A stretch of 40,958 nucleotides of DNA, taken from assembly GCA_902530635.1 (NCBI GenBank), contig CACABC010000002.1, positions 122,501 to 163,458 on the forward strand, in the 5' to 3' direction. Positions 14,493 through 17,028 of the stretch are shown piece after piece. The notes under the pieces are model-generated. The model was not told where the DNA came from. It ran no database searches and saw only the letters and a program-made list of their open reading frames with translations. Within the stretch, counting starts at the first letter, position 1. Each line of letters starts with the position of its first letter. Source of the DNA: an uncultured Pelagibacteraceae bacterium. Its GTDB lineage: Bacteria > Pseudomonadota > Alphaproteobacteria > Pelagibacterales > Pelagibacteraceae. Position numbers and translations under genes: made by a program.

Positions 14493-14909
14493 TTAAATAT
14501 ATATTTTATCTGCTAGACCGTAACAGAGTATTGCACTTAAAACTGTAAGAATAGCTGGCGCAATAACTTGCTCGATTGATGTTTTTTTTGTATGGCCAAG
14601 TTTGTTGATAAAATGGTTATAGATGCCAATAAAAAATAAAACAAAATTTTGAACAAAAACAAGATTAAAAAAAGCCCAAGTAGCCTGAACTCCATTATCT
14701 CTTACAAAAAGTATGTATAAAGCCATTAAAATTGATCCAATAAAAAATCCCCCAAAAAATCTAACTATACCTGCTGAGGTTACATCCATTCCGTATTGTT
14801 TAATAAAAGATTTTGTACCGATTACAGACTTAAAAGCATAAATACCATAAGCCGTAAAGTGAATTAAAAATACTATTAAATAAAAAATGTTATTAAATTT
14901 CGCAATCAT
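14493..14909 (-). CDS. Small integral membrane protein, four predicted helices
   Basis: I do not recognise this 138-residue protein. Hydrophobic segments near 7-28, 47-66, 75-97 and 115-135 suggest four transmembrane helices with short loops. It lies 27 bases after the DmdA-like gene on the same strand and is probably its cotranscribed third member, so it may serve the same substrate, for instance in uptake or sensing; this is only inference from position. Its end is one base from the convergent LON-domain gene. Confidence 0.75.
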   Translation of the reverse strand: MIAKFNNIFYLIVFLIHFTAYGIYAFKSVIGTKSFIKQYGMDVTSAGIVRFFGGFFIGSILMALYILFVRDNGVQATWAFFNLVFVQNFVLFFIGIYNHFINKLGHTKKTSIEQVIAPAILTVLSAILCYGLADKIYI

Positions 14910-14936
14910 AAAAAATAAATTTAAAAATGTCTTAAA

Positions 14937-16307
14937 CTACTTAGACTCTCTGGTATTCTTATTGAATGACTCAGTAAATGGTATTGGCACAACTGTCGCA
15001 TTCACAGGTTTGTTTGAGTATTTTTTTGGCAAATGCACTTTATATTTTTTCCCAAAGTTACCAATTGGATAACCATTTGTGTTTAAATTTCCTTCAAATG
15101 GAACGTATCCCATAGCTATATTTGTGCCTTTCTCAGGATGATACCAAGGAGAAGTTATAAAACCGACAGGCTTACTTCCTTTATCATTTGATATTAACCA
15201 AAAATCATTTGCATAATCTTCGATGGGCTTTCCACCCATTTCTAAACCAACTAGTTGAAGTTTGTATGGTTTTTCGCCGTTTTTTATTTGTTCTCTCATT
15301 TTTTCCAGTGCCTCTTTGCCCACATAATTTGTTTGTTTGTTCCATACTCCTTTGCCAGATAATGAAACTTGATATCCAAGATTGCATTGAAATGGATTGT
15401 GTTCATGATCTAAATCTTGGCCCCAAGATAATATTCCAGCCTGAATTCTTCTATGATGTGCTGGTGCTATAACCATTAATTTATGTTTTTTTCCAGCTTT
15501 AAGAACTGTGTTCCACATATCTTCTGCATATAATGTTGCGTTTCTTAAATAAATCTCGTAGCCAGCTTCTCCAGAAAATCCTGATTGAGAAATCACACAG
15601 TCTCTTCCACCAATTTTTGCCTTGGCCAAACCATAGAATGGAATATTATCCATATCTACCTGGTTACCGACCAAATCTTTCATTAAAGCTTTGGACTTTG
15701 GTCCTTGAATTTGAACTGGACAAGCATCTATTTCGTCTATTTCAACATTAAATCTTTTATCTGCATTAACACCTTGTAAATATAAACCAATGTCAGAGTC
15801 CGACAAACTAAACCAAAACTCATCGTCTTCAACTCTCAGCAAAACAGGATCATTAAGAACTCCACCCTTATAATTACAAAGAATAACATAACGAGCACGC
15901 ATAATTGAAATTTTTGTTGCATCTCTTGTAATTACATAATCTACAAATTTTTCTGCGTCTGGACCTTTAACACGAATTTGTCTTTCAACTGCAACATTCC
16001 ACAATGTAACGTGATTTTTTATAGCTTGATATTCGACCATCGCACCACCTTTTTCAGGTCTTACGTATCCTCTTGGATGGTAAACTCGATTATAAACTGT
16101 AGCTCTCCAACAACCAGCTTTCATAGATAAATGCCAGTATGGTGATTTTCTTACTCGAGTTGAGATCAGCATTTCTACTTTTGTAGGTCCACTTTGTCTT
16201 AAATTATAAGGAACTTGTCTATCTGATTGATCAACTGAAGTTTCGTGTTTAACTTTGTCGTAATTTACTTTTTCAACTTTATAGGAGTTGGGTACCTTTT
16301 TAGGCAT
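14937..16307 (-). CDS. DmdA/GcvT-like tetrahydrofolate-dependent demethylase
   Basis: This 456-residue protein belongs to the GcvT fold family and most resembles DMSP demethylase DmdA. Aligned blocks include STRVRKSPYWH-x(4)-AG (49-65), W-x-VAVERQIRVKGPDAE (103-119), NDPVLLRV (152-159), QIQGPKSKALM (199-209) and SGFSGEAGYEIY (242-253). By family knowledge such enzymes move a methyl group from a methylated substrate to tetrahydrofolate. It is about 90 residues longer than the DmdA of Pelagibacter as I remember it, with roughly 45 extra residues at the N terminus and an extended C-terminal barrel ending VVPIPFTESF. Larger O-demethylases such as LigM share that plan, so the substrate should not be assumed to be DMSP. 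Its start overlaps the MetF-like gene by eight bases. Confidence 0.85.
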   Translation of the reverse strand: MPKKVPNSYKVEKVNYDKVKHETSVDQSDRQVPYNLRQSGPTKVEMLISTRVRKSPYWHLSMKAGCWRATVYNRVYHPRGYVRPEKGGAMVEYQAIKNHVTLWNVAVERQIRVKGPDAEKFVDYVITRDATKISIMRARYVILCNYKGGVLNDPVLLRVEDDEFWFSLSDSDIGLYLQGVNADKRFNVEIDEIDACPVQIQGPKSKALMKDLVGNQVDMDNIPFYGLAKAKIGGRDCVISQSGFSGEAGYEIYLRNATLYAEDMWNTVLKAGKKHKLMVIAPAHHRRIQAGILSWGQDLDHEHNPFQCNLGYQVSLSGKGVWNKQTNYVGKEALEKMREQIKNGEKPYKLQLVGLEMGGKPIEDYANDFWLISNDKGSKPVGFITSPWYHPEKGTNIAMGYVPFEGNLNTNGYPIGNFGKKYKVHLPKKYSNKPVNATVVPIPFTESFNKNTRESK

Positions 16308-17028
16308 AATTATTTTTAATTAACCACTTGTTGGTTTCTTTTAATCCACCAAAAGTATAAATATGAAAATTACTTGTTGATTTTTTCACTTGGCTAATTA
16401 AATCGTTTGGATCAGAGGGTTTAAGTAGATTAATTGCTTTTGCAGCATTAGATTTTATGAAGTTTAAAGAATTTTTAGCACCAACAATGTTTGCGAACTT
16501 TATTAAACTAGTTAATTTTAAAGGGCCAGTAATACCAACGTGAACTGGTAAACTTTGTTTAGAAATAAATTTATTAATTGGTTCTGGATTTATAAGCCAT
16601 TGCGTTACAATGTAGTCTGCAAAAGGTTTTTTATCTTTCATTGCTTTTTCCAAATCAGAATCCGATATATCAGGGGACCCCTCTGGATGTCCAGCAATTC
16701 CTATCTTAAAGCCCTCAAATAATCCTGTCTCTAATATCTGTAATGAACAGTGAAAATCTCCAATCGGTTGAGCGCTTCCCCCTATCACCAGTGCTTGTTT
16801 TACGCCAAAATCTTTACACATAGAAACATAATCTTTTAAATCTCCAATATTTTTTATTGATCTGGCTGGAAAGTGAGGTACTGGATTAAACCCGGATTGG
16901 ACTAGCTCTCTTGCTTTCCTCGCAACCTCTTTAAAATCATTTCCGGGTAACATGGTTATGTAAACATCTTTAACCTTTGGCAAAACCGAAAGATCTGTTT
17001 TCATAGTTATTTCTAATGAAAAATGCAT
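16300..17028 (-). CDS. MetF-like methylenetetrahydrofolate reductase family protein
   Basis: This 242-residue flavoprotein-type barrel resembles MetF. It starts F-S-L-E-I-T (the glutamate E6 matches the catalytic Glu of MetF), then has VYITMLPG (22-29), VPHFPARS (50-57), ALVIGG (79-84), GIAGHPEG (110-117) and IVTQWLIN (140-147). It is about 50 residues shorter than standard MetF. Next to a THF-dependent demethylase, the likely role is to oxidise the resulting 5-methyl-THF to methylene-THF, or the reverse; the direction is inferred from context. The start at MHFSLEIT is preferred over an internal Met because SLEIT aligns with the conserved first strand. Confidence 0.85.
   Translation of the reverse strand: MHFSLEITMKTDLSVLPKVKDVYITMLPGNDFKEVARKARELVQSGFNPVPHFPARSIKNIGDLKDYVSMCKDFGVKQALVIGGSAQPIGDFHCSLQILETGLFEGFKIGIAGHPEGSPDISDSDLEKAMKDKKPFADYIVTQWLINPEPINKFISKQSLPVHVGITGPLKLTSLIKFANIVGAKNSLNFIKSNAAKAINLLKPSDPNDLISQVKKSTSNFHIYTFGGLKETNKWLIKNNYA

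Follow-up and report, generated by a model that had tools for sequence, protein, structure and literature searches.

Two kinds of described system stand close to the locus examined here. The first is DmdA (structures 3tfh–3tfj; model PRK12486), which transfers a methyl group from an onium carboxylate to tetrahydrofolate (THF), a substrate logic related to that of the reaction that we propose below. The second is the set of enzymes that demethylate glycine betaine, an abundant marine osmolyte. The routes described are those of GbcAB, a Rieske system, of BHMT, and of the cobalamin-dependent MtgB/MTTB (PMC12478193 and PMC12093977, in excerpt). How the first demethylation proceeds is still described as 'elusive' in the available part of a paper from 2025 (PMC12478193). 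Nearest of all, Sun et al. (2011) noticed the pair SAR11_1264 (metF)/SAR11_1265 in three SAR11 genomes, called its substrate unknown, and speculated that SAR11_1265 acts on the second methyl of DMSP (PMC3160333, in excerpt).

Judging from gene order and from the description of HTCC1062 in that excerpt, the locus considered here carries the same pair, a metF beside a DmdA-related aminomethyltransferase. The difference is in the substrate: the second methyl of DMSP was the paper's guess, while the present comparison points to glycine betaine. Genomic association leads us to propose that the aminomethyltransferase, a protein of 456 residues, is probably a THF-dependent glycine betaine demethylase of the GcvT/DmdA superfamily, feeding methyl-THF to MetF. 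The pair itself has been in print since 2011; what appears to be new is that the orthologues of the 456-aa protein (hereafter the 456-aa family) form a group of their own, set in a betaine context. Our search of the open-access literature, most subscription papers and preprints lying outside it, found neither a THF-dependent GcvT-type glycine betaine demethylase nor an assignment of the pair to glycine betaine.

The locus and its two-gene unit

The window is a stretch of 40,958 nucleotides from an uncultured Pelagibacteraceae bacterium. The initial annotation had read in it a MetF-type gene overlapping a DmdA-like GcvT-fold gene, then a gene for a small membrane protein, and all three open reading frames were confirmed (Table 1). 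The overlap of the first two is consistent with a single transcript.

Table 1. Features of the window considered in this work
Feature	Positions	Strand	Basis and size
MetF-like gene	16300–17028	minus	open reading frame, 242 aa
GcvT-fold, long DmdA-like gene	14937–16307	minus	open reading frame, 456 aa
Overlap of the end of the MetF-like gene and the start of the GcvT-fold gene	16300–16307	minus	8 bases, read in the sequence
Four-helix membrane protein gene, 3′ of the GcvT-fold gene	14493–14909	minus	open reading frame, 138 aa
rRNA operon at the window edge (16S, tRNA-Ile, tRNA-Ala, start of 23S)	1–2367	minus	

A MetF-like gene lies immediately upstream of the 456-aa-family gene, on the same strand, in 86 of 87 SAR11 loci (the window, 80 loci found by scanning genomes and six fetched ones, of which L067 belongs to a genome that is related but of a different family). 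Only six of these 87 have a relative of the membrane protein, and we therefore take the unit to consist of two genes. The membrane protein, with its four hydrophobic segments (residues 8–26, 51–69, 78–96 and 115–133), had been presented as a working part of the module; that rarity rules it out as a third member and leaves it as a local neighbour. In L093 it is 51% identical to that of the window, against 96% for the adjoining demethylase, as would follow from fast change or replacement. An Rfam scan of the window returned rRNA and tRNA only, hence no riboswitch at the gene pair. Some matches within the SAR11 order contain an in-frame TAG, which probably lies 5′ of the true start; in the two loci read (L184 and L186) the open frame starts after it, at about query residue 9–10.

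A family next to DmdA, and distinct from it

The 456-aa protein belongs to the GcvT/aminomethyltransferase superfamily by its Pfam matches (GCV_T, 141.8 bits for a cut-off of 25.6; GCV_T_C, 28.9 for 25.9), and falls short of both NCBIfam models of GcvT (157 bits against 300; 138 against 236). The model that fits it best in that collection is DmdA, and the best solved relative is likewise DmdA (3tfh, E 2e-46). With DmdA it shares the GcvT fold, and the Asp, Glu and Tyr residues discussed for folate binding in DmdA are retained in the alignment as D153, E251 and Y253. This kinship, together with the position of the family as sister to a DmdA clade (see below), might suggest that we are dealing with nothing else than a divergent DMSP demethylase. 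Yet the protein reaches only 242.9 bits for the DmdA equivalog cut-off of 410, three relatives score 262, 245 and 337, and all four members scanned (243–337) remain under it. The genome of the window has, furthermore, a separate DmdA-type gene (C6) at 502 bits, 28.6% identical to the 456-aa protein; a second dmdA in the same genome, which the initial annotation had advised looking for, is thus present. Cut-off, tree and separate DmdA together indicate, at the level of sequence, that the 456-aa protein is not DmdA, and make a divergent DMSP demethylase very improbable.

A LigM/DesA-type aromatic O-demethylase, with the same fold and a link to MetF, is the least credible of the identities considered. 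The LigM and DesA models give 35.4 bits (cut-off 580) and 45.7 bits (cut-off 800), a profile of the 456-aa family finds LigM structures at 48 bits and DmdA at 251, and aromatic pathway genes are absent among the neighbours scanned. Both the aromatic methyl donor and the LigM-like extended C-terminal barrel of the initial annotation lose their footing here: DmdA aligns from residue 49 of the 456-aa protein, so that the extra length comprises some 40 N-terminal residues, the rest being about 35 C-terminal residues (read from alignments) and small insertions.

Two active-site stretches of the alignment differ: where DmdA has YNHMLLP and SKQ, the aligned members of the 456-aa family have the motifs YNR-YHPRG--PE-GG and SGE. 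A tryptophan of DmdA, W171, is said to be specific for DMSP (PMC7487153); by our own count it is W197 of 3tfh, and the 456-aa family has Phe there. We dropped this site as proof against DMSP, the DmdA of the same genome having Phe too. An AlphaFold2 model built with 36 SAR11 relatives (mean pLDDT 54, pTM 0.48) was too poor for use.

In a 70-row tree, built after removal of rows in which a gene recurred with a different locus identifier, the 456-aa family forms one clade of 34 rows (support 98/96; 100/100 without the most distant row), sister to a 17-row clade that holds the DmdA of the window's genome. The phylogeny that had been called for thus sets the protein beside the clade that holds DmdA, and not inside it. 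The 34-row clade spans SAR11, other Proteobacteria and haloarchaea. A clade of DmdA-like proteins of about 380 aa (L056–L066, L092, L187 and L188:9659-10825) scores 371–387 bits where scanned, just under the DmdA cut-off of 410; in L092 the gene stands beside OsmC, enoyl-CoA hydratase and acyl-CoA synthetase genes.

Orthologues were found in 160 of the 197 genomes sampled from the SAR11 order, 20 more having weaker paralogue matches only. In a sample of the class, 19 of 385 genomes match (53–100% identity across 425 or more query positions), and the SAR11 family accounts for three, counting the genome of the window; in a sample of the phylum, six of 398 match at E ≤ 1e-100, four from outside the class. 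Among plasmid records 17 matched, 16 of them haloarchaeal, with 50–58% identity over 89–95% of the protein. A scan of viral sequences gave one partial match.

Neighbourhoods across the family

What lies around these genes supports glycine betaine. We set 31 family loci (20 + 6 + 5 plasmid stretches; a sixth plasmid stretch holds a paralogue) against 20 control stretches taken from their genomes. A gene of the dimethylglycine dehydrogenase (DMGDH) type is nearby in 16 of the 31 and in none of the controls, a MetF-like gene in 17 and none, Fhs in 11 and one, and true SoxB (at least 59% identity) in seven and none. Against this reading, neither DMGDH nor a Sox gene appears in the stretch fetched for 14 of the 31. 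Two alphaproteobacterial genomes (L068, L069) have the order soxB-soxD-soxA-soxG-DMGDH-MetF-family on one strand. In another class of the phylum, L179 and L180 carry family-MetF-Fhs beside genes for GbdR, L-serine ammonia-lyase and DMGDH, and L178, of the same class, has a like arrangement in which no MetF was detected. The L179 proteins are equivalogs by score (GbdR 500.8 bits for 480; L-serine ammonia-lyase 682 for 345). In the available parts of the source, glycine betaine and dimethylglycine act as inducers of GbdR, and the same catabolic pathway includes sdaB (PMC12093977). In the genomes of L178, L179 and L180 no match to GbcA reaches its cut-off, and MTTB is absent.

The haloarchaeal plasmid copies stand among genes for MetF, FolD, Fhs, GlyA, a BCCT transporter and FAD oxidoreductases with a GcvT domain, one of the five (L090, from GH36) having none of these markers nearby. 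A Haloarcula cluster includes also a Rieske oxygenase, at 132 bits for a GbcA cut-off of 670, which counts against glycine betaine. Dimethylglycine pathways have been noted in haloarchaea (PMC3102087, in excerpt).

The family differs from DmdA also in its neighbours, which are those of glycine betaine breakdown and not of DMSP breakdown. The earlier surmise that the substrate is something other than DMSP, a betaine-like compound being among the guesses, gains support.

Presence and absence in SAR11 genomes

Profiles were drawn for the 149 of the 197 SAR11-order genomes that are at least 90% complete. As these genomes are related, the counts are associations that are not independent of phylogeny. 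The family and DMGDH (E ≤ 1e-200) are both present in 118 and both absent in 24, leaving seven discordant genomes (2 + 5); ten are discordant at E ≤ 1e-150. DMGDH at the stricter threshold is present in five of the 29 good genomes devoid of the family, which is against the betaine reading.

The family and DmdA, by comparison, disagree in 32 of the 149, 22 having the family without DmdA and ten DmdA without the family. This bears on the speculation of Sun et al. (2011), in which the second methyl of DMSP breakdown would be removed, turning methylmercaptopropionate into mercaptopropionate. Kinship with DmdA (3tfh again), the adjoining MetF and the common occurrence in SAR11 would all suit that reaction. 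The mismatch with DmdA does not, nor do the haloarchaeal members of the family and its placement next to genes for GbdR, DMGDH and Sox, so that the genomic evidence argues against the speculation as given in the excerpt (PMC3160333) and makes it improbable, if slightly less so than a divergent DmdA.

Coming back to glycine betaine, no S-methyl_trans (BHMT-family) gene is found in 36 of the 149 good genomes. DMGDH (E ≤ 1e-200) is present in 28 of these 36, and all 28 carry the 456-aa family; with DMGDH taken at E ≤ 1e-150 the family is present in 28 of 31 and missing from G129, G150 and G156. Among 36 chosen family-bearing genomes (16 SAR11 without S-methyl_trans, 16 other alphaproteobacteria and four others), GbcA passes its cut-off in one and MTTB in three.

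The genome of the window (985 kb, 86% complete) has no S-methyl_trans match at that completeness. Its DMGDH matches rat DMGDH at 663 bits over 797 residues; both points favour the betaine reading. Three others speak against it: no OpuAC was found in this genome, its DMGDH is on another contig than the window, and the window itself contains neither a DMGDH nor an ETF gene. A SoxA-like fragment of the same genome (L181:2-1363) is cut at a contig edge, so that sarcosine oxidase is probably present and broken by the assembly.

The proposed reaction and its MetF-like partner

The 456-aa protein would hand one methyl of glycine betaine straight to N5 of THF. The products would be dimethylglycine and 5-methyl-THF, and neither cobalamin nor oxygen nor homocysteine would take part. 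The MetF-like enzyme of the overlapping gene would oxidise 5-methyl-THF to 5,10-methylene-THF, and FolD, Fhs and formate dehydrogenase would complete the oxidation of the methyl group. Dimethylglycine would be taken to sarcosine and then glycine by DMGDH and a sarcosine oxidase, the genes for which lie outside this locus. The genomic comparisons support, as a reading, the methyl-catabolic pair of the initial annotation, a THF-dependent demethylase feeding MetF. We know of no enzyme that passes a methyl group from a quaternary ammonium straight to THF with no corrinoid involved, and this weighs against glycine betaine; aromatic O-demethylases of the same fold act on leaving groups of probably similar basicity. 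DMGDH and sarcosine oxidase deliver methylene-THF, and for this reason a MetF would be needed only if the product were methyl-THF. SAR11 bacteria are without MetH and MetE according to excerpts of two papers (PMC5069961, PMC12478193), so that methyl-THF would have no other obvious use in them. With GbcAB, BHMT and MtgB/MTTB, as these appear in the parts consulted (PMC12478193, PMC12093977), the proposed route would share its first step, from glycine betaine to dimethylglycine, and its later enzymes. It differs in that the 456-aa family is unrelated to them, and in a direct transfer to THF where they use oxygen, homocysteine or cobalamin.

The MetF-like protein scores 17.1 bits for Pfam MTHFR, under the cut-off of 24, and matches over residues 14–238 a solved 5,10-methylenetetrahydrofolate reductase (7xg9, E 4.2e-33). 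This best solved relative, which we take to be the LigM-associated MetF of strain SYK-6, is a point in favour of the LigM/DesA reading. In a 15-row alignment Glu at position 6 and a TQ motif are invariant; presumably these are the catalytic residues of MetF. The genome of the window contains a single match to the protein, which may therefore serve DmdA as well. In R. pomeroyi, metF2 adjoins mtgD (PMC12478193, in excerpt). The window's protein resembles such catabolic MetF2-type enzymes (R. pomeroyi metF2, 7xg9) in being a second or only MetF paired with a demethylase and, as proposed here, oxidising methyl-THF; it is unlike them in being short and under the Pfam cut-off.

If the proposal is right, a near-universal SAR11 gene pair gains a function, and most SAR11 have a new way of demethylating glycine betaine, its methyl group being put onto folate and burned for energy. 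BHMT would no longer be needed for this step, in keeping with the at least 28 good genomes that are without the whole BHMT family. DmdA and the 456-aa enzyme would be sister solutions for the sea's two main methylated osmolytes, and a missing first step would be supplied for the haloarchaeal dimethylglycine pathways (PMC3102087, in excerpt). It is about evenly balanced whether one orthologous family, independent of cobalamin and oxygen, carries glycine betaine methyls to THF in SAR11, other marine Proteobacteria and haloarchaea alike, and forms the main entry of glycine betaine to C1 oxidation in much of SAR11, with BHMT as a side route.

SAR11 neighbourhoods and other quaternary amines

Within SAR11, DMGDH lies in the fetched stretch at 37 of the 87 loci, or at 25 of the 48 with full flanks. 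Also near the pair are NAD-dependent formate dehydrogenase, in 11 of the 87, and Fhs, in 13; the window's genus is among those concerned. In favour of glycine betaine, MetF-family is directly preceded in G164, a close relative, by genes for a ProX-type binding protein (335 bits for 215) and a ProW-like permease on its own strand. Such a permease occurs at nine of the 87, and the binding protein of eight of them is of another OpuAC type, under the ProX cut-off where scanned.

That second type, together with two further neighbours, brings in the possibility that THF receives its methyl from a different betaine or quaternary ammonium, be it choline, carnitine or a cyclic betaine, or from dimethylsulfonioacetate, the sulfonium analogue, with MetF acting as proposed. 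The L162-type binding protein has 152 bits for the OpuAC family and only 39.6 for ProX (cut-off 215), and its permease scores equally high for choline ChoW and ProW. At 32 of the 87 loci a Rieske oxygenase is near the pair, with carnitine monooxygenase (CntA) as best solved relative (E 4e-34), and an EgtD-type methyltransferase gene is near the demethylase at nine. Given the CntA-like oxygenase, we regard another quaternary amine as a serious rival, albeit an unlikely one: the enzymes most constantly encoded nearby use dimethylglycine and sarcosine, which are products of glycine betaine, and GbdR is found in the neighbourhoods. Glycine betaine is thus retained as the preferred substrate.

Some arrangements deserve mention for themselves. 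The Rieske gene is beside the MetF–demethylase pair in, for example, L083:11260-12489 and L222:8154-9386, and is under the GbcA cut-off. The EgtD-type gene of G164 (L225:1911-2816; also in L094 and others) lies 3′ of the demethylase and reaches 282 bits for 290.9. L162:3698-9206 is an apparent operon of S-methyl_trans, a second DMGDH-like gene, an OpuAC-type binding protein, a ChoW/ProW-like permease, MetF and the demethylase. It counts against the proposal that seven of the nine transporter-linked SAR11 loci have S-methyl_trans and a second DMGDH-like gene, and that G921 combines the 456-aa family with a GbcA over the cut-off of 670 (G494 comes close, at 636), so that a second entry for glycine betaine is possible there.
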